Assembly: GCA_016191815.1 (NCBI GenBank)
Contig: JACPVI010000002.1
Span: 62,001-126,000 of the forward strand
DNA from: Myxococcales bacterium
GTDB lineage: Bacteria; Myxococcota; Myxococcia; Myxococcales; Myxococcaceae
Length of the DNA stretch: 64,000 nucleotides
Reading direction: 5' to 3'
The position numbers and the translations under genes were made by a program. Each line of letters starts with the position of its first letter. Position 1 is the first letter of the stretch. This document shows positions 15,014-35,630 of the stretch, piece after piece. The notes beneath the pieces are model-generated. The model had not been told where the DNA came from. It searched no databases and was given only the letters and a program-made list of their open reading frames with translations.

Positions 15014-17329
15014 ATGCTCCGCCACCCAGTGCGACGGACCAACCAGAGACCTCTGCGGCGCCAGTGGACGCTGCCGCTGGCGCTGATGCTGCTCGCCGCG
15101 CCGCCGGCCTCGGTCGCGTCGACGCCGACCAACGGCTGGATCGTCTGGGCCTCGACGCGCGGCGGGACGCTGCACGACATCTACCTGATGCGCTCGGACG
15201 GGACGCAGGTGACCCGGCTGACTCAGACCGGAGCGCGCAATCCGATGTGGTCGCCCGACGGGAGCTGGATCGCCTACGAGACCGTCCCGGCCGGCCGCAC
15301 CCGCGTGATGCGGTGGGACAAGTCCGACGACAAGGAGATCTTCGCCGGGCCCCCGCTGTTCTGGATGCTGGACGGGAGCGGCGTGGTGTGCCGCACCGGC
15401 GACGACTTCAAGCTGGTGAATCCGGACACTGGCGCGGTCACGCACCTTTTCTCGAAGGCGGACTTCTCCAAGATCGGAACCAAGGAGATCAACCCGGGCG
15501 CCATCACCCGAGATGGCCGTTACCTGTTGGCCCACAGCGACCGCTACCGGCAGACGTATGCGGGGGACAACGGCACCTTCACCGCCTACCACGCGGCGAT
15601 CGTTCTCGACCGCCAGGACCCAAGCAAGGTCTACTACTTTGGGCAGGGTTGCGAGCCGACGGCGCCTCCGACGGGCGGGCTCATCTACCATGTCTGCGGC
15701 GGCGGCGCGTGCCAGGGCACCTCCCCCGACATCTACCAGATGCAGGTTTCGGATCTGGCCACCCGGGCGTCCTACCAGGCCGAGATGGCTCACTCGGATC
15801 CGGACTGGGGCCACGAGTACTTCCCCCGCATCTCCACCGACGGGCTGTGGCTCACCTACGGCGCCACCACCGGGTGCCACGATCACGACACCTGCGACTA
15901 CGAGGTCTTCGTGCACAAGCTCGGGGCGGGCGGCGCAGACCGGACCCGGCTGACCACCAACTCGGCGAACGACCAGTGGCCGCACATGTTCCTGGGCACG
16001 CTGTGGCAGAGGCCGGTGCCGCAGCTCACGCTCTCTCCCACCTCGCTCAGCTTCTCGGCCCTCACAGGCGGCCAAGACCCAGCGCCGCAGGAGGTCGCGG
16101 TCACCAACTCCGGCGCGGGGACGCTCGCGGCGGTCACCACCTCGATCTCCTACGGCGCCGGCGCCGGGTGGCTGGCCATTACCCGCACGGGCACCGGCAA
16201 CGCGCAGAAGCTCAGCAACGCCGTTACCGCCCAGGGCCTTCCCTCCGGCACCTACACCGCGACCGTCGACGTCGCAGCGTCCGGAGCGGGCGCCAAGCAA
16301 TACAAAGTCACCGTCGCCGTGACCGATCAGATCCAGCTCGCGCGGATCGAGGTGACCGGCTCGGCCAAAAGCTGCTTCCCCGGCGGAGCGGTGAGCCTCA
16401 CGGCTCGCCCGCTGGACCAGAACGATGCCCCCTTCGCGGCCACCATCGCCTGGCGGAGCAACGGTGGCGGCGCGCTCTCTCCGGCCTCGAGCGGAGGAGC
16501 CGTCACCATGCACACCACCGCCTTCGCCTGCGGCGCCACCGAGGGCACCTTCCAGATCACCGCGGAGTCCGGCGCGGTGAGCGGCGCGGCGGTGGTGGTC
16601 GTGGCCGCCCCCCTCTCGTTGCCGGTGCGGATCAACTCCGGGAGCAACGACTACCCGGTCGAAGGCTGGCTCGCGGACGACGCCTTCGTCTCCGGCGGAG
16701 CGGACTGGATCAACCCCAACGACGTGGAGGTTTCAGGGGTGCCCGAGGCCGGCCCGCCCGCTCTCTACAAGAGCGTGCGCCACCAGAGCCCGCACTCCTA
16801 CCGGATCCCCGTGGCCGACGGGCGCTACCTGCTTCGCCTCCACTTCGCCGACGCCTACACCAATCGCTCGATGACGTACCTGGCCGACGGCGTCCAGATT
16901 CTCTCCGGGTTCGATCCCTCCTCCGAGGCGGGAGGCGTCAACCGCGCGTTGGTCAAGTCCTTCGAGGTCGACGTGGTAGGCGCAGACGGGCTGCTGATCG
17001 AGGCGACGAGCGCGGGCGACGTCTTCGAGGCAGGCATCGAGCTGCTCCCGGTCGCCCCGGCCGGCGGCGAATCGGACGGCGGGACCGAGCCCCTGGGCCC
17101 GGGCCCGTCCCCGGACCAGAGTGGGCCCTCCCGCGTCACGGAGACCCAGGTGACCGGCACCCTCGGGTGCAGCGCCGGTCCCCTGCTCCCTACGGTCGGC
17201 GCCTCGTGGCTGCTCTGGGTCGGGGCGCTCGCTGTCCGGGGCCTTCGCGGACGCAACCGCTGGAGGAGAAATGAGGCCAATAGCGCTGTGCCTGGTCGCC
17301 CTCGCGCTCGCCGCTCCCGCTCGCGCTGA
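15014..17329 (+). CDS. secreted beta-propeller/malectin-like protein with MYXO-CTERM-like tail
   Basis: The real start is the ATG at 15014 (the frame is open far upstream). The 771-residue product has a signal peptide (LPLALMLLAAPPASVAS). A TolB/PD40-type propeller at residues 36-330 contains VTRLTQ and WSPDGSWIAYE, and its last blade carries CHDHDTCDYEVF and NDQWPHMF. A BACON-like domain lies at 337-435 and an Ig-like domain at 437-530. A malectin-like carbohydrate-binding domain at 536-690 contains VRINSG and YLLRLHFAD. The tail has Cys719, a hydrophobic span and RGRNRWRR. The architecture suggests glycan binding at the cell surface. The frame overruns the next gene by 59 bp with an Arg-rich tail. 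First gene of the plus-strand glycan operon. Confidence 0.85.
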   Translation: MLRHPVRRTNQRPLRRQWTLPLALMLLAAPPASVASTPTNGWIVWASTRGGTLHDIYLMRSDGTQVTRLTQTGARNPMWSPDGSWIAYETVPAGRTRVMRWDKSDDKEIFAGPPLFWMLDGSGVVCRTGDDFKLVNPDTGAVTHLFSKADFSKIGTKEINPGAITRDGRYLLAHSDRYRQTYAGDNGTFTAYHAAIVLDRQDPSKVYYFGQGCEPTAPPTGGLIYHVCGGGACQGTSPDIYQMQVSDLATRASYQAEMAHSDPDWGHEYFPRISTDGLWLTYGATTGCHDHDTCDYEVFVHKLGAGGADRTRLTTNSANDQWPHMFLGTLWQRPVPQLTLSPTSLSFSALTGGQDPAPQEVAVTNSGAGTLAAVTTSISYGAGAGWLAITRTGTGNAQKLSNAVTAQGLPSGTYTATVDVAASGAGAKQYKVTVAVTDQIQLARIEVTGSAKSCFPGGAVSLTARPLDQNDAPFAATIAWRSNGGGALSPASSGGAVTMHTTAFACGATEGTFQITAESGAVSGAAVVVVAAPLSLPVRINSGSNDYPVEGWLADDAFVSGGADWINPNDVEVSGVPEAGPPALYKSVRHQSPHSYRIPVADGRYLLRLHFADAYTNRSMTYLADGVQILSGFDPSSEAGGVNRALVKSFEVDVVGADGLLIEATSAGDVFEAGIELLPVAPAGGESDGGTEPLGPGPSPDQSGPSRVTETQVTGTLGCSAGPLLPTVGASWLLWVGALAVRGLRGRNRWRRNEANSAVPGRPRARRSRSR

Positions 17330-17684
17330 GTCCGCCGAGGAGCTGGCTTTGACCGCGGAGCTGGTGGAGATACCCAGCGAGCTGCCCCCGGACGACCTGT
17401 ACGACTACGCCTACGTGATGAAGTACCGAGTCCAGGGCGGAGCGCAGGGCGGGCAAACCCTGCTGGTGGCGCACTACAAGCCGAGGCAACCGAGGGAAAA
17501 GATCGAGAAGGCGATGCGCGATCGGGTCGGCGGGAAGCTCAAGCGGTTCAGGACCGGAGACCTCCACCGGCTGGTGCTGCGGCGCGATCTGGAGAAGGTC
17601 TTCGACGGCGCGGTGGTGGACGAATACTTCGCCGCGGACCGAAAGACTCCGCGCTACTGGTGCAAGCAGGTGGACCCAGCCTGA
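17271..17684 (+). CDS. small secreted protein, function unknown
   Basis: A 137-residue protein with a clear signal peptide (IALCLVALALAAPARA) and a mature part rich in charged residues: LVEIPSELPPDDLYDYAYVMKYRV, shown here only in outline, then LLVAHYKPRQPREKI. I recognise no family. The start at 17271 is strongly supported by TGGAGGAGAA directly upstream, although it lies within the last 59 bp of the propeller gene. It sits 18 bp before the MBOAT acyltransferase gene. Similar short periplasmic proteins often precede AlgI-like genes, so it probably serves the same surface acetylation process (inference). Confidence 0.75.
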   Translation: MRPIALCLVALALAAPARAESAEELALTAELVEIPSELPPDDLYDYAYVMKYRVQGGAQGGQTLLVAHYKPRQPREKIEKAMRDRVGGKLKRFRTGDLHRLVLRRDLEKVFDGAVVDEYFAADRKTPRYWCKQVDPA

Positions 17685-17702
17685 GCGCGCGCTCCCACGG
17701 GC

Positions 17703-19130
17703 ATGGTCTTCACCTCGCACATCTTTCTCTTCTACTTCTTGCCGGCGGTCATCCTCGGCTACTACGTGCTGCCGCAGCGGTGGCGGAACGGCTTCCTCAC
17801 CCTGGTGAGCTACGTCTTCTACGGGTGGTGGAAGCCCTGGTTCGTCACCCTGATGCTCGCCTCGACCCTGATCGACTACCTGGCGGTTCGGGTCATGGCG
17901 GCGCCGGGCGCGAGCCCGAGGCGGCGGAAGCTGGCGCTCCTCGCCTCGCTCGTCTCGAACCTCGGCCTGCTGGGCGTCTTCAAGTACGCGATGTTCGCGC
18001 AGGGAAACGCGCTCGCGCTGAGCGAGGCGCTCGGCCTGGGGAGCTTCCCCGTCCTGGAGATCACCCTCCCGATCGGCATCTCTTTCTACACGTTCCAGAC
18101 GATGTCCTACTCGATCGACGTCTACCGAGGCGAGGCCACGCCGGTGCGCCGCTTCGGGGACTTCGCCTGCTTCGTCGCCCTCTTCCCGCAGCTGGTGGCG
18201 GGGCCGATCGTGCGCTTTCAGACCCTGGCCAACCAGCTCAGGGAACGGGCCCACTCCTTCGAGCGGTTCGCCTCGGGAGTCGCCCTGTTCTCGCTCGGAT
18301 TCGGGAAGAAGATCCTCCTCGCCAACCCGGTCGGTGAGCTCGCCGACGCCGCGTTCGCCGCCGACCACCCCGGCGCCCTCGCCGCCTGGTTCGGGATCGT
18401 CGCCTACGCCTTCCAGATCTACTTCGACTTCTCCGGCTACTCGGACATGGCCATCGGCCTGGGCCGAATGTTCGGCTTCGAGTTCCCGAAGAACTTCGAC
18501 TCTCCCTACCACTCGCAGAGCATCACCGAGTTCTGGCGGAGGTGGCACATCTCGCTGTCCACCTGGCTTCGCGACTACCTCTACCTGCCGCTGGGCGGCA
18601 ACCGCCTCGGGCCGCGAAGGACGTACGTCAATCTCGCGCTGGTGATGCTGTTGGGCGGCCTCTGGCACGGCGCGCACTGGCAATTCGTGGTCTGGGGGGC
18701 CTACCACGGCCTGCTCCTTGGCGCGGAGCGCGCGCTCGGGAAGAGCAGCGCCTACCGGGGGCTGCCGAAGCCGTTGCGGATCGCGCTCACCTTCGTGCTG
18801 GTGCTCATCTCCTGGGTGCCGTTCAGGGCGAACACCCTCACCGAGGCGGGGCACTACCTGGGCGCGATGTTCGGGCTGCGCGAGGCGGGCGCCCCGGCGG
18901 CGCTGCTGATGGCCCAGCTCCTGTCGGCCCACAGCCTGCTGATCATGGCCATCTGCACCGGCGTGGTGGCCATGCGGACGCAGTCGTGGGACTTCGTCGA
19001 GGCCATCTCCCGGAACGAGCCCGGAGTCCGCGCCTGGGCTCGGCTGGCGGTGGCGCCCGCAGTCCTCCTCACCGCGGTCGCGGCCATGTTCACGCAGGCT
19101 TTCAACCCCTTCCTCTATTTCCAGTTCTGA
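17703..19130 (+). CDS. MBOAT O-acyltransferase (AlgI-like)
   Basis: A 475-residue polytopic membrane protein of the MBOAT family. It has the AlgI/DltB landmarks: FNYHSQS-like DSPYHSQSITEFWRRWHISLS (given here in parts), LRDYLYLPLGGNR, and the invariant His in LLGGLWHGAHW. That His is at residue 322, the same number reported for the essential His of Pseudomonas AlgI; a second conserved His is at 282. It moves acetyl groups from a cytoplasmic donor across the membrane to a periplasmic acetyltransferase. Its stop overlaps the ATG of the AlgJ-like gene (TGATG), as expected for the AlgI/AlgJ pair. Which polymer is acetylated is not shown. Confidence 0.94.
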   Translation: MVFTSHIFLFYFLPAVILGYYVLPQRWRNGFLTLVSYVFYGWWKPWFVTLMLASTLIDYLAVRVMAAPGASPRRRKLALLASLVSNLGLLGVFKYAMFAQGNALALSEALGLGSFPVLEITLPIGISFYTFQTMSYSIDVYRGEATPVRRFGDFACFVALFPQLVAGPIVRFQTLANQLRERAHSFERFASGVALFSLGFGKKILLANPVGELADAAFAADHPGALAAWFGIVAYAFQIYFDFSGYSDMAIGLGRMFGFEFPKNFDSPYHSQSITEFWRRWHISLSTWLRDYLYLPLGGNRLGPRRTYVNLALVMLLGGLWHGAHWQFVVWGAYHGLLLGAERALGKSSAYRGLPKPLRIALTFVLVLISWVPFRANTLTEAGHYLGAMFGLREAGAPAALLMAQLLSAHSLLIMAICTGVVAMRTQSWDFVEAISRNEPGVRAWARLAVAPAVLLTAVAAMFTQAFNPFLYFQF

Positions 19131-20326
19131 TGGCCCGCACCCGCACCATCGCGCTCACCGCAGGGTTCCTCGGGCTGATCTTCGCGCCCCCGGTCGGGCA
19201 GGCGATCGTCGAGCTTCGCGAGGGGGAGCGCCCGGTGATCGCCGAGCTGTTCGCCGGGGCGCCCGCCGAGGCGCATCTGCGGCAGCTCGAGAAGTCGCTG
19301 GACGAAGCCTCTTCGCTGGGCTCCCACCTCAGGCCCTGGTACCAGGTGCTCAAGCACCGGCTCACGGGCGACCTCGGGCACAAGGCCCTCCGCGGCCGGG
19401 AGGGTTGGCTCTTCTATCAACCGGACGTGAAGTACCTCCTGGAGCCCTATTTCCGAGGCCAGGGCCCACTGCCCGAGGGGGACCCCGTGGCGGTGATCCG
19501 CGACTTCAAGGAGCAGCTCGCCTCACGGGGTATCGATCTCCTGGTCGTCCCGGTCCCCGGCAAGCCGAGCGTCCTGCCGGACCGGGTCTCGGCGGCCCTG
19601 GAGCGAACGTCGGAGGTGAACGGCAACACGCGGCGCTTCCTTTCGGAGCTCCGAGAGGCAGGAGTGGAAACGGTGGACCTGCAGGCGGCATTTCGCTCCC
19701 GCCGGGAGGCCGCGGGTGACGACGGGGCGCTCTACTTGCGCACGGACACGCACTGGACCGGTGAGGGGGCGGTGCTCGCCGCCCGGCGGCTGGCCGAGCG
19801 CGTTCGCCGCTACTCCTGGTACGAAGGGGCCGCCGGCGAGCGCCGCTACCGGACGAGAGAGGCCAGCGTCATGCGCCGAGGAGACATCGTCACCATGTCC
19901 GGCGTCCCGAGCGCCATCGAGACAATCCCGGAGGAGCTGGTTCGCTGCCGCCAGGTGGTGGACGCCGACGGAGGGCTCTACCGGGACCTTCCCGAGTCCC
20001 CCGTCCTCCTGCTGGGGGACAGCTTCTCCCGCATCTATCAGTCCGACGAGCCCAGGGCCGCCGGGCTGATCGCCAACCTGGCCTACGAGCTCCAGCTTCC
20101 GCTGGCGTCGATCGTCAACGACGGCGGGGCGTCGACGCTGGTGAGGCAACAGCTCGCGCGGCGCACCCAGTTGCTCGAGGGCAAGCGGCTGGTGATATGG
20201 GCGTTCGTGGAGCGCGACGTGCGCTTCGGCCTCCAGGGCTGGAAGCCGGTGGCGCTCTGGCCGGAGGAACCGCAACCGCACGATCCGACTCCCGCCCCTG
20301 GGAGCCCCAAGCTTGCATCGCCGTAG
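19130..20326 (+). CDS. AlgJ/AlgX-like SGNH O-acetyltransferase
   Basis: A 398-residue exported protein with an N-terminal signal anchor (ALTAGFLGLIFAPPVGQ). It belongs to the AlgX/AlgJ SGNH-like acetyltransferases: GREGWLFYQ near residue 90, catalytic Asp206 and His208 in TDTHWTGEG, and nucleophile Ser298 in LLGDSFSRIY. It takes acetyl groups supplied by the neighbouring MBOAT protein and transfers them to a polysaccharide in the periplasm. ATG overlaps the MBOAT stop by one base. The domain is homologous to the C-terminal half of the protein at 26816-28828 (same order GREGxLFY, FVPVPxK, DTHW, GDSF). Confidence 0.92.
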   Translation: MARTRTIALTAGFLGLIFAPPVGQAIVELREGERPVIAELFAGAPAEAHLRQLEKSLDEASSLGSHLRPWYQVLKHRLTGDLGHKALRGREGWLFYQPDVKYLLEPYFRGQGPLPEGDPVAVIRDFKEQLASRGIDLLVVPVPGKPSVLPDRVSAALERTSEVNGNTRRFLSELREAGVETVDLQAAFRSRREAAGDDGALYLRTDTHWTGEGAVLAARRLAERVRRYSWYEGAAGERRYRTREASVMRRGDIVTMSGVPSAIETIPEELVRCRQVVDADGGLYRDLPESPVLLLGDSFSRIYQSDEPRAAGLIANLAYELQLPLASIVNDGGASTLVRQQLARRTQLLEGKRLVIWAFVERDVRFGLQGWKPVALWPEEPQPHDPTPAPGSPKLASP

Positions 20327-20345
20327 CGGCGACCTGGAGACCGCG

Positions 20346-21545
20346 ATGAAAAAGCAAACCTCGATTCCGGCGCTGACGAGCGTGGTCACCGCGCTCGCCC
20401 TGATGGGCTGCTCGGGGAGCCCTGGCACCCCCGCCGATGGCGGCACCCAGCCGGGAGGAAACACCGACGTCAAGGGGAAGGTGCTGGACGCGCTCGGACG
20501 GGGCGTAGGGGACGCGGTGGTGTCGGCGGGTGGGATCACCGCCAAGGCGGACTACCTGGGCGCCTACGAGCTGAAGGCGGTCCCATCGGGAGCGGCGACG
20601 CTCCGCGCGGAGGCGGACTGGTTCAACCCCGGCGAGAAGGCGATCGCGCTCGAGGCCGGCATCCCGGCGCAGGAGGACCTCCCGCTCCAGGCGAAGCCGC
20701 TCCAGGTCCTCGCGGAGGACGAGACGCTCGCCGCCACTTTCGCCCAGTCGTTCGATTGGACCAAGGACAAGACCTCGGTCGAGGTGGTCCCGAGGCCTTC
20801 CCGGGCCAAGATCGACGCCGCGCTGTACCTGCGGAACCCGGCGCTCTACCGGGACACCACGGCGCAGGCCCGGGTGACGCCCACGCCTCTCCCCAGCCTC
20901 TCGGGCGCGCCGCAGGGTTTCGACTTCCCCATCCCTTTGGGGGGGGCCAACGCCGGCCAGCAGGCCCTGGACACCGCCACCCTGGTCGACAGCCTCGCCG
21001 GGACGCCGCTCACCGCAGCGGAGAAGGCGGCGTTCTTCGTGTGGGAGCCGGCGATCAAGAACTACCTGCGCAGCTGGAATCTCGACGCTTCGCTGACCCT
21101 CTACTATGGCGGCCTGGCGGTCGAGTCGCAGCGGTGGGGCGCCACCCCGCAGATCCCGCCGCAGTCCTTGCGCAGAGTCTTCCTGCACCAGCGAGAAGTC
21201 TGGGTGGAGATCGTCTTCGAGAAGTTCGTCGACCTCGGGGCCGGCATCACCGACACCGACGGCGACGGACGGAAGGAGGTCTTCGGCCGGTTGAAGGCCG
21301 CGCACGTGGCCGCCTCTGCCTACGACCGCCTCGAGAGCGACTACGTCGGCAAGACCTTCGACACCCTCGAGCTTCGCGACCGGCTCTCGGACATCCTCGA
21401 CGACCTCTACAGCAAGACGAACCCCACCGTGGAGGGAGTGATCGGCGTGCCCTACCCGATCCCGGGAGTCGGCACCGTGAAGTACCCCTTCGTCGTCCTC
21501 AAGCACGCCGGCGGAGCGGTGAACGTGCTTCTCGTGAAGCCCTGA
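20346..21545 (+). CDS. lipoprotein with regulatory-like beta domain, partner of AlgJ-like protein
   Basis: Start at the ATG at 20346 (GGAG 9 bp upstream) rather than 20313; this gives MKKQTS and a lipobox ALMGC. The mature N-terminus has a carboxypeptidase-regulatory-like beta domain (VKGKVLDALGRGVGDAVV). The C-terminal 200 residues are a distinct domain with TDTDGDGRKEVFG, an EF-hand-like DxDGDGxxE loop, and it ends PFVVLKHAGGAVNVLLV. That domain matches, in order and in motifs, the N-terminal half of the fusion protein at 26816-28828 (TLVDSLAGTPL against TLVGSVRQTPL; DGDGRKEVFG against DGDGFAELWG). This points to a function together with the AlgJ-like acetyltransferase. No known family name. 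399 residues. Confidence 0.82.
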   Translation: MKKQTSIPALTSVVTALALMGCSGSPGTPADGGTQPGGNTDVKGKVLDALGRGVGDAVVSAGGITAKADYLGAYELKAVPSGAATLRAEADWFNPGEKAIALEAGIPAQEDLPLQAKPLQVLAEDETLAATFAQSFDWTKDKTSVEVVPRPSRAKIDAALYLRNPALYRDTTAQARVTPTPLPSLSGAPQGFDFPIPLGGANAGQQALDTATLVDSLAGTPLTAAEKAAFFVWEPAIKNYLRSWNLDASLTLYYGGLAVESQRWGATPQIPPQSLRRVFLHQREVWVEIVFEKFVDLGAGITDTDGDGRKEVFGRLKAAHVAASAYDRLESDYVGKTFDTLELRDRLSDILDDLYSKTNPTVEGVIGVPYPIPGVGTVKYPFVVLKHAGGAVNVLLVKP

Positions 21546-23161
21546 TGAGCCCGCCGGGCGAAAGGCGGAGGGCAGCCGGCCTCGCCGCGCTGCTGGCGGT
21601 CTTCTCTCCCGGTTCGGCGCTGGCGCAACCGGCCGGCTACCTGGTGTGGACGAAAGGAGCGGCCGGGGACCGTTCCAGCCGCCGCCTGGTCCGAATGACG
21701 CTCCCGGAGAAGAGCGACCTCCAGGCGCTCACCTCCGGCGAGGACGTGGAGGCGCAGATCAGCCCCGATGGGGTGTGGGTCGCGTACGCCAAGGCCAAGC
21801 TGCCCGCCTCCGACTACCTCCAGCTCAAGCTGTGGAAGCTCTATTTGGTGTCGGTGCACGGAGTGGGCGAGGGCCGGGAGGAAATCCTCATCGACGACAA
21901 CGGGTACTGGCCGAGCTGGGGAGGCCCGGGCCGCCTGCGCTACTCGCAGGTGCACCCCGAGGACGACCGGCACACGCGCATCCTCGAGGTAGTGATCGAC
22001 GACTACGGGCAGGTGCTCGAGAAGCGCGCCCTCATCGACACCCGGTCCGCGTTCCCCGGCATCCCCGAGATCAACGAGTGCCACGTGTCTCCCGATGGCC
22101 GGTGGTTCGCCGCCCGCACCCGCGGGAGCCCGTCGGTGAGCGGCGTGGGCGCCTACTGGCTGGCCCCTCCCGAGTTCAAGCTCCTGGCGCGCGCCGGCTC
22201 GGTGGGCTGCATGCCGCGAGTGGCTCCCTCGGGGCTCTGGGGCCTCATCGCCGGGCGCGAGCACGGCATCCGCTGGGGCGACGCTCCCGACGTGCCCGAC
22301 CGGAAAGAGGATCAGTTGCTGATCCCCTCGCGCGGGCCCGGCGACCTGGCCTACCACCCGGGCATCTCCACGGACGAGCAGTGGGCCCTGGCCGCCCACT
22401 CCACCGACAACGATCACAACGCCGGCCCGTACGACCTCTACCTCTACCAGCTGGAGGGGCGCGCCGCCGGGCCGGGGCAGCTCATGGCGAGCGGTGGCTT
22501 CAACGGCTGGCCACACCTCTGGGTCGGCCAGCCCGGCCCGCCTCCGGCGCCCCGGCCCCACGTGGACCGGTTCCAGCCTGATCGCTACACCCTGGTCACC
22601 GGCGAGAGCGCGCGGCTCCAGTGGCAGACGAGCTTCGCGGACCGGGTGACCCTGGACGGAGTGGCGGTGGCCACCGACGGAGAGCAGACCGTCGCTCCTG
22701 CCGCGACCACCGTCTACAACCTGGACGCGGCGAGCACCTCGCTCGCCGCGGCCGACCGCGGCAGCGTCGAGATCACCGTCAACCCGGAGCCACGGCCGGT
22801 GGTCGTGGAGGAGTTCGCCGCCGATCCGCCGACCACGCGAACGGCCGAGACGGTCGTGCTGCGCTGGAGGGTGAGAAACGCCGCGACGCTCGAGCTCGCT
22901 GGGCGGTGGGTGGCCCCCTCTGGGGAGCTGAAGGTGAGCCCGGTCGAAACGACCACCTACGGGCTTACCGCCCAGGGATTCCAGGGGCCGGTCACCGCTT
23001 CCCTCACGGTCACGGTGGAGCCGCTCAATCCGCTCCTGCCGGATCGGGGCGGGTGCTTGTGCTCAGGAATCTCCGGCGCGGGCGCAGCGGTGACCCTCGC
23101 TCTGCTCCTCGCTCTCCCGGGAGCTTGGCGGAGGCGCACCGGCCTCCGCGGGGCGCGCTGA
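21545..23161 (+). CDS. secreted beta-propeller protein with Ig-like domains and MYXO-CTERM tail
   Basis: A 538-residue protein. A signal peptide ends near ALAQPAG. Residues 30-345 form a TolB-like propeller (ISPDGVWVAYAKAK, HVSPDGRWFAAR). Its last blade, DNDHNAGPYDLYLYQL plus FNGWPHLW, corresponds to the same blade in the propellers at 15014 and 31734. Two Ig-like domains follow (LVTGESARLQWQTS and ETVVLRWRVRNA). The tail is GGCLCSG with Cys504 and Cys506, a hydrophobic span and WRRRTGLRG, a good MYXO-CTERM sorting signal. ATG overlaps the previous stop as TGATG. Probably held on the outer surface and involved with the polymer made or acetylated by this operon (inference). Confidence 0.85.
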   Translation: MSPPGERRRAAGLAALLAVFSPGSALAQPAGYLVWTKGAAGDRSSRRLVRMTLPEKSDLQALTSGEDVEAQISPDGVWVAYAKAKLPASDYLQLKLWKLYLVSVHGVGEGREEILIDDNGYWPSWGGPGRLRYSQVHPEDDRHTRILEVVIDDYGQVLEKRALIDTRSAFPGIPEINECHVSPDGRWFAARTRGSPSVSGVGAYWLAPPEFKLLARAGSVGCMPRVAPSGLWGLIAGREHGIRWGDAPDVPDRKEDQLLIPSRGPGDLAYHPGISTDEQWALAAHSTDNDHNAGPYDLYLYQLEGRAAGPGQLMASGGFNGWPHLWVGQPGPPPAPRPHVDRFQPDRYTLVTGESARLQWQTSFADRVTLDGVAVATDGEQTVAPAATTVYNLDAASTSLAAADRGSVEITVNPEPRPVVVEEFAADPPTTRTAETVVLRWRVRNAATLELAGRWVAPSGELKVSPVETTTYGLTAQGFQGPVTASLTVTVEPLNPLLPDRGGCLCSGISGAGAAVTLALLLALPGAWRRRTGLRGAR

Positions 23162-26009: not shown

Positions 26010-26819
26010 GGCCCGGTCGCGCTCCAGCACCTCGAGGTTGGCGGTGAGGCCGGGGAGATCGGGGTGCGCTTCCCGCGCCAGCTCGTAGGACGCGGCCGCC
26101 CACTCGAGCTCGCCCGCTGCGTGAAGGGAGAGGCCCAAGTTGGCGTGCGCTTCGGCGAAGCCGGGGAGGACCGCCACCACCTCGCGGTAGACGGCTATCG
26201 CCTCGCGCAGGCGCCCGCGCTGCCGGAGCGCGTTGGCGAGGTTGTAGCGGAAGACGGCCTCGGTCTCCCGGCCTCCCAGGCTGCGCAGGTAGAGATCGCC
26301 GCCGGCCGGGACGAGGTACCGCTCGCGGTACCACGCATCCGGCAGGCGTTCGCCCCGCTTGAGGAGCTCGACGTTCGTCTGTCCCGCGCGCACGAAGAAG
26401 TGGCCGGGGACGAGCACGCCCTGCACCGTCAGCCCCAGCCGCTCCCCGAGGGCCAGGTAGAGGCCGCCGAGCCCGAGGCAAGTTCCCCGCCGCTCCGCCA
26501 GCACCACCGGCAGGCGCATCAAGTCCAGCTCCTCGCGGCGGAGGTCGTGGCCGAACGCGGGCTCGCCGAAGACCACCTCGTGCAGCGCGAGGAGCGGATC
26601 TCCTCCGGCGCTTCGCACCCGGACGGCGATCTCTTCGAGGGCATGCAGGCTCGACTCCGCGGAGGGAGCGGCGGTCCCGGTGAGAGCCTGGACATCGTCG
26701 GAGATGAGCAGCAGGCGCGCGGTGAGCGAACCGGGCCCCGCCGGCGAGGGCTTGCAGGCCGCGAGCAGCAGCGCCGGCCCGAGGGCCGCGAGCGGCCACC
26801 GCGCCCCTCCCCGGCTCAC
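25974..26819 (-). CDS. SirB1-type transglutaminase-like/TPR lipoprotein
   Basis: The frame is open up to 27473, but the real start is the GTG at 26819, which overlaps the stop of the AlgX-fusion gene as GTGA. It gives a signal peptide with lipobox LLLAAC. The 281-residue product has the SirB1/transglutaminase-core-2 signature: LMRLPVVLAERRGTCLGLGG, here abbreviated around the Cys of RRGTCLG, then GVLVPGHFFVR. Two to three TPR-like repeats follow (AEAHANLGLSLHAAGELEWA). Members of this family are of uncertain biochemical role. Last gene of the minus-strand glycan operon. Confidence 0.82.
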   Translation of the reverse strand: MSRGGARWPLAALGPALLLAACKPSPAGPGSLTARLLLISDDVQALTGTAAPSAESSLHALEEIAVRVRSAGGDPLLALHEVVFGEPAFGHDLRREELDLMRLPVVLAERRGTCLGLGGLYLALGERLGLTVQGVLVPGHFFVRAGQTNVELLKRGERLPDAWYRERYLVPAGGDLYLRSLGGRETEAVFRYNLANALRQRGRLREAIAVYREVVAVLPGFAEAHANLGLSLHAAGELEWAAASYELAREAHPDLPGLTANLEVLERDRASLAARLRQRPP

Positions 26820-28847: not shown

Positions 28848-29576
28848 TCAAGCCGCGGTCGAATCGTAGCCTCCTCGCAGGTAGCGCAGCATCACTCGCA
28901 GCACCCTGAGACCGTACCCGACCGGCTCGAGGTGGGAGAGCTCATCGCCGTAGTGCGTGGGGATCGGCCGCTCTCCGATGCGCAGCCCGCGGGCGCGGGC
29001 GCTGGCGATCACCTCCAGATCGAAGTCGAAGGAGTCCGACAGCCGCTCGAAGGGGATCTGCTCGAGGGCGCGCCGCCCGTAGAGCAGGTAGCCGCTGTGG
29101 TAGTCGGTGAGCGACAGGCCGAAGACCCGGTTCTCGAGGAGCATCAGCATCTGGCCGGCGATGTACTTGTAGAGCGGCATCCCCCCCGAGAGCGCCGTGC
29201 CCGAGGCGATGCGGGAGCCCTGCAAGAGATCCAGCGCTTCCCGGCGAAGCGCCCGGAGGAGGCCGCCCAGCACCTCCGGCGCGTACTGCCCATCGGCATG
29301 GAGGCCCACCGCCACCTCCACCCCGGCGCGCCTCGCCGCCGCGAGCCCGGTCTTCATCGCCGCGCCGTAGCCCAGGTTCCTCGGGTGGACGAGCAGCACC
29401 GTGCGCGGATCGCGCCGGGCGAGCTGCCGGGCGACCTGGCGCGTCCGGTCGCGGCTGCCGTCATCGATGATCCACCTCCGCTGGACCTGCGCGTCCACCT
29501 CGGGCGGCACTCTCTCGAGCACCGCGGGCAGCGTTCGCGCCGCGTCGTACGCCGGGATGATCAACCCCAGGCTCAC
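28848..29576 (-). CDS. family 2 glycosyltransferase (DPM1-like)
   Basis: A 242-residue soluble GT2 enzyme resembling polyprenyl-phosphate mannose/glucose synthases: GLIIPAYDAARTL at the N-terminus, WIIDDGSRDRT for the nucleotide-sugar site, NLGYGAAMKTG, and LHADGQYAPE in the DxD position. DYHSGYLLYGRRAL and FDFDLEVIA follow. It should load a sugar onto a lipid carrier at the cytoplasmic face, giving a donor for membrane transferases such as the one at 23161. No membrane anchor is present. The GTG start overlaps the epimerase stop as GTGA. Confidence 0.92.
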   Translation of the reverse strand: MSLGLIIPAYDAARTLPAVLERVPPEVDAQVQRRWIIDDGSRDRTRQVARQLARRDPRTVLLVHPRNLGYGAAMKTGLAAARRAGVEVAVGLHADGQYAPEVLGGLLRALRREALDLLQGSRIASGTALSGGMPLYKYIAGQMLMLLENRVFGLSLTDYHSGYLLYGRRALEQIPFERLSDSFDFDLEVIASARARGLRIGERPIPTHYGDELSHLEPVGYGLRVLRVMLRYLRGGYDSTAA

Positions 29577-30634
29577 TGCCTTGCCGCCCGCGCCCGTTCA
29601 CCGTAGCGCGCCAGGTAGTCCTCGACGATCTCCGGGAGCATCTCCTCCAGCGTGCGCCTGGGCTCCCAGCCCAAGAGGCGCTTCGCCTTCTCGATCGCCG
29701 GCACCCGCGCCTCCACGTCGTCGTAGCCCTCTCCGTAGAATCGCTCGGCTGGGACGCTGCGGGCGGGAGCGCGTGCCGTCCCCTGGCGCGCCGCGAAGAG
29801 CGCCGAGAGCTGCCGGGCGAGCTCGGCGATGGTCACCTCGTTCCGGGGATTCCCGAGGTTGAAGGTCTGGCCCTCGCAGCGAGCGGGCTCGGCGAGGATT
29901 CGCAAGAGCGCCTCCACCAGCTCGCCGACCCATAGGAACGCGCGGCGGCGCTGCCCGCCGTCGACCAGCTCTAGCGGCTCGCCGGCGAGCAGGGCTCCGA
30001 GGAAGCTGGCGAGCACCCGCGGCGTCCCGTCTCCATCGATGCCGCGGATGAAATCCATCCGCGGGCCGATCACGTTGAACGGCCGCACGATGGTGTAGGC
30101 CAGACCGTGGTGCCTCCCCCTCGCGTAGATGTAGCGCTCGAGCAGCAGCTTGGCGGCGGCGTAGGTCCACCGCTCCTTCTCCACCGGGCCGAAGACGCTG
30201 GGCGAGTCCTCGCTCAGCGCCTGTTCGGCGTCGGGCGGCCTGCCGTAGACCTCGCAGGTCGACAGGTGGACCAGCCGGCGGTGGGCGGAGGTGCACAAGT
30301 CCACCAGCGGCACCAGGTCGGTGAAGCTCGCGTGGATCACCTCCACCGGCCGGGTGTTGTAGAGCGCGGGGTTGCACAGCGCGGTCATCGAGACGACCAC
30401 CTCGCTCTCGGCCACCACCTTTCGGAGCAGCCCCGGCTCGCCGAGGGCGCTCTCGAGCAGGGTCAGCCGCGGCGACCGCACCGCCAGCTTCCGGAGAGTG
30501 CGATCGACTGCGATCACCCGGTGCCCGGTCTTCTCGAGGATCCCCTCCACCAGGTGGGAGCCGAGGAACCCGCCAGCACCCAGGACGGCGATCGTCCGCT
30601 CGCTGCTCGCCGACATTGGTGCCGGATGGTGCAT
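29573..30634 (-). CDS. NAD-dependent sugar dehydratase/decarboxylase (ArnA C-terminal-like SDR)
   Basis: A 353-residue extended SDR with NAD motif GAGGFLGSHL and the catalytic WTYAAAK (Tyr and Lys). It resembles the UDP-glucuronate decarboxylase half of ArnA through its length: NPALYNTRP, STCEVYG, GPVEKERW, RPFNVIGPRMD, FNLGNPRNEVTI, and YGEGYDDVEARVP. The residues that match the catalytic Glu and Arg of ArnA (in CEVYG and VEAR) are kept, while the Ser before the Glu is Cys. It may make a 4-keto-pentose for a lipid-linked sugar. The ArnA formyltransferase half is absent. Start at 30634 (GGAGG close upstream); an ATG at 30616 is possible. Confidence 0.85.
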   Translation of the reverse strand: MHHPAPMSASSERTIAVLGAGGFLGSHLVEGILEKTGHRVIAVDRTLRKLAVRSPRLTLLESALGEPGLLRKVVAESEVVVSMTALCNPALYNTRPVEVIHASFTDLVPLVDLCTSAHRRLVHLSTCEVYGRPPDAEQALSEDSPSVFGPVEKERWTYAAAKLLLERYIYARGRHHGLAYTIVRPFNVIGPRMDFIRGIDGDGTPRVLASFLGALLAGEPLELVDGGQRRRAFLWVGELVEALLRILAEPARCEGQTFNLGNPRNEVTIAELARQLSALFAARQGTARAPARSVPAERFYGEGYDDVEARVPAIEKAKRLLGWEPRRTLEEMLPEIVEDYLARYGERARAARQ

Positions 30635-30668: not shown

Positions 30669-31730
30669 CTAGAAGAGGGTCAGCTTGAGGCCCAGGCTGA
30701 CGTTCCAGCTCTGGACTCCAGCGGGGGACAGAGGCAAGGAGCCCGCCAGGAGCACCGCCACCAGGTCCGAGGACCACTCTGCGGCCACCTGCGGCGTGGC
30801 CAGCCACATCGGCTGCTCGGGGACGAGCTGGTTGCGCTCGCGATCGCCGAGCAGCTTGCTGGTGAGGGTGACTCCCGCGGATGGCACGAAGGGGCCGAGA
30901 AGGTAGCCCGCGAACGCATACCCGCTCGCGGTGGAGGCCCGCTGGTCTCCGAGCCGGTTCACCCAGCCTCCGTAGGAGGCCGTGCCGCCGAGGACGATCA
31001 CCCCCCAGCTCTGATCGAGGGTGTGCTCGAAGCTCAAGGCGGCGGTGGGGACGCCCGCGCCGAGCTGCATCCGTTGCGGGAGGACGATTCCCTGGCGAAC
31101 GGCGTCTTGGGAACCGGTGGGCACGGTGAGGGAGAGAGTGGCGGTGGAGGCGTTGGTGACTCCCAGCTTGCGGGTGGCCTCCAGGCCCAGATCTCCGAAG
31201 CCTGGCAACCGCGCGGTCTTCGGCGTGCCATACACGTTCACCTCCGCCACGTTGTAGAGGAAGGGCACGTTCAACCCCACCAGCCACTTGTATCCGATGG
31301 AGGTGCCGACGCGGGTGGCGAGGCTGATTCCGGTCGCTCCGTCGGAATACCCGGCTCGTCCGGCCAGGCACTGCACGTCCACCAGCCCGCCGGTGACGCC
31401 CCGGCCGATCCACTTGACGCCACCGCCGGAGGGCCCGGTGCCGCCCGCACCGCAACCGCCAATGTTCCCCCAGCTCGTGAGGGCGGGCGCGCGCTCGGCG
31501 ACCCGGACCAGGGCCTCCACCGCGGCCTCGTCGCAGCGCACCGAGCTTGCCGTGGGTTGGAGGGCTTCCGGCCGGCCGCGGAGCTGAAAGCGCGCCCGGT
31601 CCAGGGCAGCTCGCGCCTGGTGCCGGGCCTGCAGCTCGTCGAGGAGAGGGAAGAGCGACACCGAGAGCCCGCCCGCGGCGACCAGGACGAACGAGAGCGA
31701 CGCCCAGCGCGGAGGTGAGGCGGTCGGCAT
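30669..31730 (-). CDS. outer-membrane beta-barrel protein
   Basis: A 353-residue exported protein with a signal-type N-terminus (LSFVLVAAGGLSVSLF). The second half has alternating amphipathic strands with Gly and aromatic ends (SLATRVGTSIGYKWLVGLNVPFL shown in part, SFEHTLDQSWGVIVLGGTA), and it ends NVSLGLKLTLF, a typical outer-membrane terminal Phe. Residues 95-115 are Gly-rich (GGCGAGGTGPSGGG). It resembles transporter-type or MetA-pathway barrel proteins. Possible role: outer-membrane porin or export channel for this locus. It lies 3 bp after the propeller lipoprotein gene and 34 bp before the ArnA-like gene. Confidence 0.8.
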   Translation of the reverse strand: MPTASPPRWASLSFVLVAAGGLSVSLFPLLDELQARHQARAALDRARFQLRGRPEALQPTASSVRCDEAAVEALVRVAERAPALTSWGNIGGCGAGGTGPSGGGVKWIGRGVTGGLVDVQCLAGRAGYSDGATGISLATRVGTSIGYKWLVGLNVPFLYNVAEVNVYGTPKTARLPGFGDLGLEATRKLGVTNASTATLSLTVPTGSQDAVRQGIVLPQRMQLGAGVPTAALSFEHTLDQSWGVIVLGGTASYGGWVNRLGDQRASTASGYAFAGYLLGPFVPSAGVTLTSKLLGDRERNQLVPEQPMWLATPQVAAEWSSDLVAVLLAGSLPLSPAGVQSWNVSLGLKLTLF

Positions 31731-31733: not shown

Positions 31734-32768
31734 CTATTCACCATCCACGAAGATGTCGGGCCAGCGGTCGTTGCCCGAGTGGAAGGTCAGCCGGGTCGCC
31801 TCTTCGGCGGGGGCGCCGATCTCCCAGGCGTAGATTTCGTAGTCGGCGATGTCGTGATCATGCCCCCGCTGGGTGGCGGCCCACACCAGCCACTTCCCCG
31901 AGGCGGACATCTGGGGGAAGTACTCGTGCGATCGCCGGCCCGGGAGATCGATGAAGCGAACCGCCTCGTAGGAGGTGTCTCCGGAAGGGCGCCCGTCCGA
32001 GAACGCGCAGCTGAACACCTCGCTGCCGCCGTTGCCCGAGGGGTTGACCCAGTAGATGCGGTTGCCCTTGGGGTGCCAGTTGACCTGGCAGCCCTCTCCA
32101 GTCTTGAGCCAGGTTCGCGCCTTCAAGTCGAACACCCCGGTCTCGCGGCGCGCCCCCCGGAGCGTCAGCGCGAGGAACCGGCCGTCCGGCGAGAGCTGCG
32201 GCTGCTGCAGCTCGGCGGCGGCCAGACTCGATTCGGCTTCGCTGTCCACCAGGAGGTTCTCCTCGCCGGAGCTCAGCCGCCGGCGAAGCACCTTCGTGTT
32301 CCGGGAGAGGAGGAGCTCCTCATTCGACAGCCAGGTGCCCCAGCTCGCATCCGGGGCGACCAGCTGCTCCTTGCCGCCGGCCGCGTCGATCGTCCAGAGG
32401 TCCCACTTCCAGTTGCGGTTGGAGTCCCGCTCGAAGACCCAGCCTTGCTTGCTTCGGGTGAAGAGGATCCGCCGGCCATCGGGCGAAAAGCGCGGGAACC
32501 AGTCGACGGAATCGGACTGGGTGAGCCTCACCACTTCACCGCCGCGAGTCCGGATCAGAAAGAGGTCGTGGTGTCCCCTGCGCGAGCTGGACCAGACCAC
32601 TCTCGCGTCCAGCTTGGTGGCGAGCCGGGCCAGGGCGGCTCGGGCGGCCTCGTCCACCTCCTGCTCCGCGCCGGCGGTCGCCTGTCCGCTCAGGGTGGCG
32701 CACCCCATCGGGCCGAAAAGGACCAGGGCGAGCGACAGGCAGGTGGCGAATCGCGCGGCAGATCGCAT
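31734..32768 (-). CDS. TolB-like beta-propeller lipoprotein
   Basis: Start at the ATG at 32768, with AAGGAG seven bases upstream; the frame stays open far beyond it. The 344-residue product has a lipobox (FGPMGC) and a six-bladed TolB/PD40 propeller: VVRLTQSD, FPRFSPDGRRILFTRS, LSPDGRFLAL. The last blade, GHDHDIADYEIYAW then TRLTFHSGNDRWPDIF, is nearly the same as in the propeller at 15014 and is recognisable in the one at 21545. The three are therefore paralogues, this one anchored as a lipoprotein instead of by a MYXO-CTERM tail. Probable periplasmic or outer-membrane scaffold for glycan handling. Confidence 0.87.
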   Translation of the reverse strand: MRSAARFATCLSLALVLFGPMGCATLSGQATAGAEQEVDEAARAALARLATKLDARVVWSSSRRGHHDLFLIRTRGGEVVRLTQSDSVDWFPRFSPDGRRILFTRSKQGWVFERDSNRNWKWDLWTIDAAGGKEQLVAPDASWGTWLSNEELLLSRNTKVLRRRLSSGEENLLVDSEAESSLAAAELQQPQLSPDGRFLALTLRGARRETGVFDLKARTWLKTGEGCQVNWHPKGNRIYWVNPSGNGGSEVFSCAFSDGRPSGDTSYEAVRFIDLPGRRSHEYFPQMSASGKWLVWAATQRGHDHDIADYEIYAWEIGAPAEEATRLTFHSGNDRWPDIFVDGE

Positions 32769-32779
32769 GCGCGGCTCCT

Positions 32780-33691
32780 TCAAGCAGGCCGTCCTCGGGG
32801 GAAGCACCGCGGCAGGCCCTCGGTCACTCCCATCGGCGAGTAGCCGAGGTCCCGCGCGCTCGCCCAGGGGTCGAGGTCGGCGTCCTGGGTCACGCCTCGC
32901 ACCGCACCCAGCGTCAGGGGCGGGTGGCGCATGAGCTTCGAGAGCACCCAGGCCCCCAGCTCGCAGGCCGGGGCGGGCAGGTGGAGCACCCGCGGCGAGC
33001 GGCCAGACTGTCGCAACAGCAGCATGGCGAGCTCCTCGATGGTGATCGTCTCGCCGCCAGAGAGGTTGTAGATCTTCCCGTGAGTCTTCTCGTTGCCCGG
33101 GATGGCGACCATTCCGCGGACCAGATCGTTCACGTGGACCGGCCGCTTCTTGGCACGGCCGTCGCCCACGAAGGGCAGCAGCCACGGGAAGCGCAGCAGG
33201 TAGTCCCAGAGCAGCAGCAACTCGGCCCCGCCGCCCTCGCCGTAGACCAGCGTCGGCCGCACGATGGTCCAGGCGAGGTCGGTTTGCCCGCGCACCCACT
33301 CCTCGGCGCGCCGCTTGGAGCGGGAGTACGGCGTGGTCTTCGGGTAGACCACCGACGCCGAGGAGACGTGGACGAAGTGGCGGGCTTTTGCCTTCGCCGA
33401 GGCCTCCAAGAGGTTTCTGGTGCCCTCGGCGTTGACGCGCTCGTAGTCGGAGGGGTCGTCGGTGAGCAGCACCGCTGCGAGATGGAGCACGGTGTCCACT
33501 CCCTCCAGCGCGCGCCCGAGGGAGGGGGGGACGGTGATGTCGCCCTCGACAAGCTCGCAGCCGGCGTCCGCCAGCCGCCCGCGCAAAGGGTCGCCCGGAA
33601 GGACGAGGGCGCGCACCCGGTGCCCTCGCGCGCGCAGAGCCCGGGTGAGCCGTCCGCCGATGGTCCCTGCCGCGCCGGTGACCAGGATCAT
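32780..33691 (-). CDS. NAD-dependent epimerase/dehydratase
   Basis: An extended SDR sugar enzyme: VTGAAGTIGG NAD motif, TVLHLAAV, the catalytic TPYSRSKRRAE (YxxxK), TIVRPTLVYG and RPVHVNDLVRGMV. I start at the ATG at 33691, five codons before the NAD motif; another ATG at 33730 adds 13 residues and neither has a clear ribosome site. 303 residues. It likely converts a nucleotide sugar used by the neighbouring transferases. The C-terminal part diverges from known epimerases, so the substrate is unknown. Only 11 bp separate it from the propeller lipoprotein downstream. Confidence 0.87.
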   Translation of the reverse strand: MILVTGAAGTIGGRLTRALRARGHRVRALVLPGDPLRGRLADAGCELVEGDITVPPSLGRALEGVDTVLHLAAVLLTDDPSDYERVNAEGTRNLLEASAKAKARHFVHVSSASVVYPKTTPYSRSKRRAEEWVRGQTDLAWTIVRPTLVYGEGGGAELLLLWDYLLRFPWLLPFVGDGRAKKRPVHVNDLVRGMVAIPGNEKTHGKIYNLSGGETITIEELAMLLLRQSGRSPRVLHLPAPACELGAWVLSKLMRHPPLTLGAVRGVTQDADLDPWASARDLGYSPMGVTEGLPRCFPRGRPA

Positions 33692-33815: not shown

Positions 33816-35630
33816 CTACTCGAGCGTCAGCAGGGCGGAGCCCGTGAACCCGGGCACGCGGAAGGAAAGGCGGTTCGATTCCCTCGAGACCGAAAGGGTG
33901 ATCGACCCGTCGTCGGGAAGGCGCATGCGAAGCGCCGACCCGGTCGTGGCGACCGAAGGCGGCAGCGCGAGCGTGACGTCGAAGCCACCCTCTGCCTGCG
34001 GCCTGTGGTTGGCGTAGTCGTACGAATAGGAGAGGAGGAACAGCGAAAGGACCCCGTCCCGGTGATAGGGGACGAAGGCGACCGTGTCCGCCGCATCGGT
34101 GGCAATCAGGCTCGAGATGGTGGGGAGCTCGCCCGGGCCGACGACCCGACCACCCGCGGCTTGGTACTCGTCGAGCAGGCACGCGGCCTTTGCGCCCCTC
34201 GAGGGCCCGGGCGCGACGATTGCCCCGAAGCGCCGCAGCTCCGACCCCGCCGGCAGGGCGCCGGCGAACTCCCCGTCGCCCACCACCACCACCTCGAACG
34301 GCACGTGCAGCTTCTGCAGCTCGCGCGTCGCCGCGAGGAACGCCTGGTGCGTCTTGCCCCCGTCCAAGAAGCTGGTCCCGTAGTCCTCCGCGTAGGCCGC
34401 CTGGGCGTCGTAGAGCACGGCCACGTCTGCAAGCAAGCTTCCCTTGGCCGAGGGGGCGATCTCCCGCGCGAAGCGAGCCGCCGGAGCCAGGGCGGCGGAA
34501 TCGACGTGGTAGCGCCCACCGCCGAACGTGTACGCCTGATGGGGGACGAGGAACGTCTGACCCGCCGCCGCGGCCTCGCTGAGCCAGTGCCCGAAGAGCG
34601 GCCAGTCGGCCTCCTTCAGGTTCGCCAGCGACAGGATGTCCGGGAACATCACCAGCGGCCGGTTGGGCGCGAGCGCCTTGCCCAAGAGGTAGAGCCCCAG
34701 GTGCTTCGCCTCCGGCAGCGCGCCGGTAGTGTTCTCGAAGACCGCGAAGTCGAGCAGCGGTAGGTAGACCGAGCGCGAAGGCCAGAGGAAGCTGGTGTTG
34801 GCGGCGAAGCCCAGCTCGCGGCCGGCGTGGCGGCGCGCTTCGGACATCATCGCGGCGAGCTGCTGCGCGCGCGAAGAATACTGGAAGGCGACGAAGGCCG
34901 ACCTCAGGGCGGGATTCGGGTCTCCCAGAATCGTGGTGGCGCCCTTCTCCCGCAGATAGGTCCGGTAGTCGAAGGCGTCGATGCCCTGGCCGCCGATCCA
35001 CCGGCTGAGCACGGTCGGGTCATGGCGCTCTTTGAGGTACCCACGGAACCCGGACATGCAGTAGTCGCAGAAGCATCCGAAGTAGAGGTGGCCGCCGTTG
35101 CCCTCGACCTCGTCGATGTGAATGGCGTCGACCTCTCCGTCCACGTGCTCTTTGGCCCGCCGCACCAGAAACTCTCTCCACTCCGGATTGTTGTGGCACA
35201 TGAGGTAGACGGTTTCCGGCTCGATCCACAGTGCGCGGAGCGGGGCGCCACTGATGCTTCGAGAGGCCGCGCGCTGCACCAGGGCCGAATCGCCGGTCAT
35301 CGCCTCGCTGCCCTGCATGGTGGGAAAATTCGACGCCACCCGGGCGCCGGCCGCGCGCAACCTGCGCACGTACTCGCGCTGAGCGTCGTCCACGCCTCCC
35401 CAGTAGACGGACCAGGCGATCACCGTTCCCCCCAGCTCGGCGAGGTACTCGGGAGAAGGGCTTCCGTAGACGAACGTTCGAGGATCCACCAACCAGCTCA
35501 CCGGCGCCGCCGGCGGGGGTGCCCCCGGCGAGGGAACGCCGCAGCGGGCACTGGCCCTGGGAGGCTCCGGGCAGGCGAGCGCCATCAGCGCCGCCACCAG
35601 CAAAGGACCGAACGGGCGAAGCGCGTTCAC
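33816..35630 (-). CDS. glycoside-hydrolase-like TIM-barrel lipoprotein
   Basis: A 604-residue exported protein, GTG start, lipobox LMALAC. Residues 45-350 look like a glycoside hydrolase TIM barrel: VSWLVDPRTF, AWSVYWGGVD, a metal- or fold-type Cys pair in FGCFCDYCMSGFRGYL, FEVVVVGDGEFAG. Acidic residues that could serve in catalysis include the Asp/Glu of IHIDEVEGNGG. A Rossmann-like domain follows at about 400-500, and the last 90 residues form a small beta domain ending LTLE. The layout (barrel, flavodoxin-like domain, beta domain) is that of family GH42 beta-galactosidases and relatives, so it probably trims a surface glycan. First gene of the minus-strand operon. Confidence 0.72.
   Translation of the reverse strand: MNALRPFGPLLVAALMALACPEPPRASARCGVPSPGAPPPAAPVSWLVDPRTFVYGSPSPEYLAELGGTVIAWSVYWGGVDDAQREYVRRLRAAGARVASNFPTMQGSEAMTGDSALVQRAASRSISGAPLRALWIEPETVYLMCHNNPEWREFLVRRAKEHVDGEVDAIHIDEVEGNGGHLYFGCFCDYCMSGFRGYLKERHDPTVLSRWIGGQGIDAFDYRTYLREKGATTILGDPNPALRSAFVAFQYSSRAQQLAAMMSEARRHAGRELGFAANTSFLWPSRSVYLPLLDFAVFENTTGALPEAKHLGLYLLGKALAPNRPLVMFPDILSLANLKEADWPLFGHWLSEAAAAGQTFLVPHQAYTFGGGRYHVDSAALAPAARFAREIAPSAKGSLLADVAVLYDAQAAYAEDYGTSFLDGGKTHQAFLAATRELQKLHVPFEVVVVGDGEFAGALPAGSELRRFGAIVAPGPSRGAKAACLLDEYQAAGGRVVGPGELPTISSLIATDAADTVAFVPYHRDGVLSLFLLSYSYDYANHRPQAEGGFDVTLALPPSVATTGSALRMRLPDDGSITLSVSRESNRLSFRVPGFTGSALLTLE

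Follow-up and report, generated by a model that had tools for sequence, protein, structure and literature searches.

A conserved two-operon gene cluster of Myxococcota that may build an O-acetylated, pentose-bearing cell-surface glycan

Introduction

Apiose has long been regarded as a plant sugar. The published bacterial UDP-apiose synthase loci have no conserved flanking genes (PMC5607165), so that nothing in their neighbourhood pointed to the purpose of apiose in bacteria; in Geminicoccus roseus and Xanthomonas pisi the synthase-like gene has a glycosyltransferase neighbour, the enzyme of X. pisi being GT90-like (PMC6193724). A pentose relay of another kind, for L-Ara4N, is formed by ArnA, ArnC and ArnT, which combine a short-chain dehydrogenase/reductase (SDR) of the UDP-glucuronate decarboxylase type, a GT2 enzyme loading polyprenyl phosphate and a polytopic membrane protein. 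O-acylation of envelope polymers by MBOAT and SGNH proteins involves the acyl-shuttle hexapeptide FXYXXF, whose tyrosine passes acetyl from the MBOAT protein to its SGNH partner in PatA/PatB and carries a D-alanyl group in DltX (PMC12148441). Here we describe a cluster of sixteen genes, g1 to g16, organised in two converging operons on a 64,000-nucleotide stretch (the window) of a Myxococcales genome (assembly GCA_016191815.1, contig JACPVI010000002.1, positions 62,001 to 126,000). On balance, we favour the view that both operons form one functional unit making an O-acetylated, pentose-bearing cell-surface glycan, the pentose probably being apiose.

The cluster shares with AlgI-AlgJ-AlgX the arrangement of one MBOAT and two SGNH proteins which keep the PxK, DxHW and GDS/GTS motifs, one being membrane-anchored and one carrying an extra binding domain. 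Unlike that system, it has no alginate polymerase, export genes or AlgF in the locus, and it is linked to sugar-nucleotide and polyprenyl-phosphate-sugar genes and to propellers. The extra part of g10 is an N-terminal domain of no clear known fold, here called LPD (lipoprotein domain), whereas AlgX has a C-terminal carbohydrate-binding module. PatA/PatB and Dlt likewise pair MBOAT with SGNH and have FXYXXF, located at the MBOAT C-terminus or, in Dlt, on DltX; the cluster differs by lacking DltA, DltC and DltX and by its two ALGX-type partners. The combination of SDR, GT2 and polytopic membrane protein recalls ArnA-ArnC-ArnT, but the SDR is nearest to UDP-apiose synthase, the locus has no transaminase or formyltransferase, and the membrane protein g7 is only a putative GT-C glycosyltransferase. 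In contrast to the bacterial UDP-apiose synthase loci mentioned above, g12 is part of a multi-gene cluster that has been kept in three families. Finally, g1, g6 and their homologues have the Gly-Cys motif, transmembrane (TM) helix and Arg-rich tail of MYXO-CTERM proteins, which a myxosortase sends to the cell surface (PMC11980579), and differ from these in being propellers tied to a dedicated glycan cluster.

Results

Judged by their sequences, g3, g4 and g10 have the makings of an MBOAT-SGNH cell-envelope acyltransferase system, namely an MBOAT protein with a conserved histidine, an FXYXXF motif and SGNH partners with a catalytic triad. The hexapeptide FLYFQF, which fits this shuttle motif, forms the exact C-terminus of g3 and of five orthologues. 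His322 of g3, located in GGLWHG, is invariant in six aligned MBOATs, and g3 is 67-70% identical to its orthologues. Both g4 (PxK, D206-T-H-W, GDSF with Ser298) and g10 (PxK, D494-T-H-W, GDSF with Ser585) retain intact Ser-His-Asp triads; hydropathy predicts an N-terminal membrane helix for g4, and g10 begins with a lipobox-like stretch. These are the sole ALGX genes in the 6.77-Mb genome. A first-pass annotation of the window had suggested a surface-glycan acetylation system, with MBOAT limited to the plus side, that was not an alginate locus. Gene content bears out the position of MBOAT, and the shuttle motif and the two intact triads speak for acetylation. No alginate polymerase or exporter family was matched by the 16 cluster proteins in Pfam or NCBIfam, the remainder of the genome not having been searched for them. 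An alginate locus was rejected, as polymerase and export genes are absent from the locus, and so was a Dlt system, as g3 stays under the DltB cut-off (175 versus 375 bits). The acetylation chemistry of the cluster is of a known kind; its substrate, we infer, is a surface glycan.

The sugar arm comprises g12, g11 and perhaps g7. Compared with single sequences, g12 scored 299 bits against AXS1 (PDB code 6h0n), about 200 against ArnA and about 101 against UDP-xylose synthase (UXS), and the g12 family profile gave 403, 274 and 117 bits, respectively. Identity amounted to 43% with Arabidopsis AXS1 and to 33-35% with the others (ArnA 33%). Two active-site positions are Cys100 and Cys140 in AXS1 but Ala and Ser in UXS and ArnA (PMC12820599). 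The equivalents in g12 are Cys87 and Cys127, and cysteine occupies these positions in 7/7 and 6/7 aligned orthologues. All catalytic and signature residues of SDR enzymes are present, T126, E128, Y158, K162, R155, R310, Y92 and N187 of g12 corresponding to Thr139, Glu141, Tyr185, Lys189, Arg182, Arg341, Tyr105 and Asn214 of AXS1. The g12 tree, which left out the characterised bacterial UDP-apiose synthases, did not settle how AXS1, ArnA and the cluster enzymes branch relative to one another. By its scores, cysteines and signature residues g12 resembles a UDP-apiose/UDP-xylose synthase (UAXS). The same unit with the same acetylation might use xylose or a 4-keto-pentose derivative and no apiose, g12 then being a UDP-xylose or UDP-4-keto-pentose synthase. 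The reaction core common to UXS, ArnA and UAXS would accommodate this, as would the serine found at the Cys140 position of one orthologue; however, g12 is closer to AXS1 than to ArnA, PbgP3 or UXS, and with both cysteines so widely kept we regard this alternative as rather unlikely.

The nearest relatives of g11 are GT2 enzymes of the DPM1/ArnC/PpgS type. Its PDB matches were DPM synthase (5e-8) and ArnC (3e-5), it carries the motifs DDGSRD and ADGQ, and with 81 bits versus an equivalog cut-off of 370 it is not a PpgS equivalog. Orthologues of g7 (38-40% identity) share the invariant motifs TD-x-WWHLA-x-GR and DPF, with TD-x-WWHLA following the first TM helix. The family search gave no GT-C family match for g7, and TPRs were the sole match of the fold search; by analogy with ArnT, g7 could be a GT-C enzyme using the g11 product. 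A pentose relay like that of ArnA-ArnC-ArnT is suggested because g12 adjoins g11 and the other operon encodes the polytopic g7. The first-pass annotation had spoken of sugar-handling enzymes; such genes are indeed present, but the UDP-apiose-synthase-like g12, the GT2 enzyme g11 and the envelope protein g13 had been lumped together or left unmentioned.

A profile search with LPD among 195 genomes of the phylum found the domain in eight genomes of three families (window's own family n=1, second n=6, third n=1), the window's genome being the only carrier found in its large family. A ninth match (G122) was marginal, contains internal stops and was set aside. LPD contigs always bear other members of the gene set, often in the same order, with the set spread over several contigs in one genome (G194). 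The first-pass annotation would have been contradicted by propeller and LPD homologues scattered away from acetylation genes. In the eight genomes both share contigs with MBOAT, ALGX and sugar genes, apart from the split G194, and the co-occurrence search it had called for recovered members of the gene set in all eight. Linkage and gene order are kept in seven further genomes and in one more locus of a metagenome-assembled genome (MAG). The orders g2-g3-g4-g5-g6-g7-g8 and g15-g14-g13-g12-g11-g10-g9 recur, mostly at 38-70% identity; in G063 both halves meet tail to tail on a single contig, and in G068, G062 and G066 g9 meets g1 tail to tail. A scan with the g10 alignment of one genome per species (84,980 species) returned only eight loci, all from MAGs labelled Deltaproteobacteria, Myxococcales or Myxococcota, with patterns that would miss distant forms.

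All eight LPD genomes, and none of the other 187, have a UAXS-type g12 (>470 bits; the next-best score is 154). Two random sets of 8 from 195 would coincide with a probability of 2e-14, a figure which the kinship of the genomes makes much less extreme. A g3-type MBOAT (>900 bits) was found in six of the eight, the next best MBOAT reaching 583 bits, and a seventh has a 65%-identical MBOAT fragment beside ALGX. UDP-glucose-dehydrogenase family genes are present in 8/8. Because g12 co-occurs perfectly and g11 resembles polyprenyl-phosphate-sugar synthases, the cluster seems to serve both the assembly of a glycan and its acetylation. This linkage also bears on another explanation, that of an accessory locus acetylating an exopolysaccharide or an alginate- or cellulose-like polymer made elsewhere in the genome, with g11, g12 and g7 as unrelated neighbours in a general envelope island. 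In its favour, alginate acetylation likewise uses one MBOAT with two SGNH proteins (AlgI, AlgJ, AlgX), the cluster has no polymerase, and sister loci with MBOAT and two ALGX genes exist without sugar genes. Yet g12-g11 adjoin g10 in most intact loci, and a UAXS-type g12 is found in no genome without LPD, which leaves this explanation improbable.

In every locus seen, g2 lies directly upstream of the MBOAT gene g3, with orthologues in five genomes; it is among the best-conserved cluster proteins (51-65%). Neither g16 nor the genes past it are common to the related loci. A C25 (gingipain-like) peptidase gene with a MYXO-CTERM-like end lies between g4 and g5 in one related locus (L029:3430-7734, G068), and an AbiEi-like antitoxin gene with a partner open reading frame (ORF) between g11 and g10 in another (L035:7950-9367, G063); both look like local insertions.

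LPD was modelled from g10 with high confidence (predicted local distance difference test, pLDDT, 87.6; predicted template modelling score, pTM, 0.88). An invariant loop DxDxDGxxE (D166, D168, D170 and E174 of the model) reads DLDGDGFAE in g10 and DTDGDGRKE in g5, and presumably resembles the EF-hand-type calcium-binding loops of extracellular proteins. No clear match among solved structures was obtained for the model (best Foldseek E-value 0.41; best VIA-align Z 4.8, with cGAS-like rows, within the chance range), a result which does not prove a new fold. Lipobox-like N-termini were found in g5, g9, g10, g14 and homologues. Inspection by eye revealed a GGCxC-type motif, a TM helix and C-terminal arginines in g6, in its homologues and in those of g1: homologues of g1 end in GGC(S)GC-TM-RRRR, orthologues of g6 in DRGGCxC-TM-RRR, and g1 of the window in GC-TM and an R-rich part plus extra residues. 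The C-termini of g1 and g6 thus appear to have the MYXO-CTERM layout of Cys signature, TM helix and Arg-rich tail; the NCBIfam MYXO-CTERM model reported no match for the cluster proteins at E<=0.01. That the polyprenyl-phosphate sugar and the GT-C-like enzyme modify surface proteins (propellers or LPD lipoproteins), whose glycan the SGNH proteins then acetylate, is very improbable: g7 has TPRs, as do some protein glycosyltransferases, and the cluster is rich in secreted, surface-anchored proteins, but no direct evidence points to protein acceptors, and polysaccharides are the substrates of those AlgX-like SGNH enzymes with a separate binding domain that have been characterised.

Analysis of ORFs, start codons and codon positions placed eight genes in the plus-strand operon (g1-g8, 15014-26009) and eight in the minus-strand operon (g9-g16, 35630-25974), listed in Table 1. 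These models agree with the first-pass annotation in that the operons converge and overlap by 36 bp in their last genes, g8 and g9 (26009 versus 25974). Within the operons genes are separated by 0-35 bp or overlap by 1-4 bp, except for g1/g2 (59-bp overlap) and g16/g15 (gap of 85-124 bp). The mirrored parts that had been noted are real homologues. ALGX of g4 aligns with the C-terminal part of g10 at 39-41% identity (E 2e-56), LPD of g5 with the N-terminal part of g10 at 28% (E 4e-14), and the g1 propeller with that of g14 at 29% (E 1e-25); the g6 propeller is weakly related to both g1 and g14 (E 1e-6). MBOAT is found in the plus-strand operon only. In the ALGX tree, g4 with its orthologues forms one clade (100/98) and g10 with its orthologues another (99/100), each with its own sister copy in loci of other genomes that combine MBOAT with two ALGX genes. 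As these two clades are ancient, distinct and well supported, we rejected the idea that one operon is a recent duplicate of the other. Three such sister loci (L096, G064:C11; L097, G065:C5; L098, G062:C369) have one MBOAT and two tandem ALGX genes, and no LPD, UAXS or propellers within the fetched stretches. As the G+C content of the cluster (70.9%) is close to that of its flanks (70.1-70.2%), composition neither favours nor rules out horizontal transfer.

Table 1. Genes of the two converging operons, with positions in the window
Gene	Position	Strand	Product	Evidence
g1	15014..17329	+	secreted TolB-like (PD40) propeller with Malectin domain; Gly-Cys, TM and Arg-rich C-terminus, MYXO-CTERM-like	Pfam PD40 5e-7, Malectin 1.1e-5
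g2	17271..17684	+	137-aa secreted protein	no Pfam/NCBIfam match; 51-65% orthologues
g3	17703..19130	+	MBOAT O-acyltransferase; C-terminal FLYFQF, candidate catalytic His322 in GGLWHG	PF03062 5.9e-30
g4	19130..20326	+	AlgJ/AlgX-type SGNH O-acetyltransferase, predicted N-terminal membrane anchor	PF16822 7.3e-39
g5	20346..21545	+	lipoprotein (lipobox MGCS); carboxypeptidase-regulatory-like domain and LPD, DTDGDGRKE calcium-type loop	38-48% orthologues
g6	21545..23161	+	secreted propeller; GGCLC, TM and RRR, MYXO-CTERM-like	weak homology to g1/g14; 53-58% orthologues
g7	23161..25101	+	polytopic membrane protein (at least 7 TM) with soluble alpha/beta domain and TPR; candidate GT-C	TPR hits, hydropathy
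g8	25098..26009	+	secreted GDSL-type SGNH hydrolase	PF13472 6.3e-27; 47-49% orthologues
g9	25974..26819	-	lipoprotein, transglutaminase-like (SirB1-type) with TPR	PF13369 3.1e-13; orthologues 39-43%, 32% in most diverged locus
g10	26816..28828	-	lipoprotein, LPD (residues ~30-310) fused to AlgJ/AlgX-type SGNH transferase	PF16822 1.6e-29; 49-55% orthologues
g11	28848..29576	-	GT2, DPM1/ArnC/PpgS type (polyprenyl-phosphate-sugar synthase)	Pfam 2.5e-22; NCBIfam PpgS 7.5e-23
g12	29573..30634	-	UDP-apiose/UDP-xylose-synthase-like SDR	AXS1 6h0n E 3e-88, 299 bits
g13	30669..31730	-	conserved envelope protein, N-terminal hydrophobic helix, possible outer-membrane barrel	no Pfam or PDB match; 45-53% orthologues
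g14	31734..32768	-	TolB-like propeller lipoprotein (lipobox MGCA)	PD40 1.5e-11; 56-65% orthologues
g15	32780..33691	-	NAD-dependent SDR, nucleotide-sugar epimerase family	PF01370 1.6e-28; 49-55% orthologues in cluster
g16	33816..35630	-	secreted 604-aa protein, confined to the cluster of this genome	no family in Pfam or NCBIfam, no convincing PDB hit; homologues absent from related loci

Adjoining g1, a minus-strand gene (13266-14768) encodes a secreted protein whose end is of the GCGC type and which has a putative Ig domain (He_PIG). Beyond g16, a plus-strand gene (38953-40740) encodes a secreted protein that has a TM helix and a CGC-type C-terminus and whose sequence resembles a right-handed beta-helix.

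Discussion

The following scheme, for which we infer the substrates, the acceptor, the order of steps and the export, would join both operons. The precursor UDP-glucuronate, supplied through the UDP-glucose-dehydrogenase family genes, would be converted by g12 to UDP-apiose with UDP-xylose as by-product, and g11 would load the pentose onto polyprenyl phosphate. After flipping, the suspected GT-C enzyme g7 may transfer it to a periplasmic acceptor, as in the ArnA-ArnC-ArnT relay. Acetyl from acetyl-CoA would pass through g3 to the tyrosine of its C-terminal FLYFQF and on to the membrane-anchored, AlgJ-like g4 and the AlgX-like lipoprotein g10, which would acetylate the glycan. LPD with its calcium-type loop may serve as the substrate-binding part, replacing the carbohydrate-binding module of AlgX. 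Export, holding or display of the product could be the task of g13, g5 and the propellers g1, g6 and g14, anchored by lipid or MYXO-CTERM, and g8 and g9 may trim it.

Several observations weigh against an apiose-bearing glycan made by one unit. UAXS enzymes produce UDP-xylose too, and the orthologue with serine at the position of Cys140 (L045) departs from the AXS1 pattern. The membrane part of g7 was modelled with a pLDDT of about 30, only residues ~385-640 being confident in a model built with two sequences, and no clear polymerase, flippase or exporter lies within the cluster. Six of the eight carrier genomes are from one family, most of them fragmented MAGs, so that fewer independent events lie behind the co-occurrence than the count suggests; g16 is confined to the present genome.

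The first-pass annotation could name no known cluster of this kind, and in the searchable literature we likewise found no description joining MBOAT-SGNH acetylation, a UDP-apiose-synthase-like gene, a polyprenyl-phosphate-sugar synthase and LPD, nor any report on MBOAT acetylation in Myxococcus or on an apiose pathway in Myxococcota. We tentatively propose that this may be the first conserved bacterial cluster for an apiose-containing, O-acetylated surface glycan, with a polyprenyl-phosphate-apiose relay, one MBOAT and two SGNH proteins, one of which carries a fused calcium-binding domain whose fold is unseen in solved structures. The cluster shows the arrangement of one MBOAT with two SGNH proteins outside alginate, and LPD is a further, new domain through which such acetyltransferases may locate their glycan. 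With g12 linked in a conserved cluster to surface-anchored proteins, the acetylation machinery and a polyprenyl-phosphate-sugar synthase, the use of apiose by bacteria would become directly testable.

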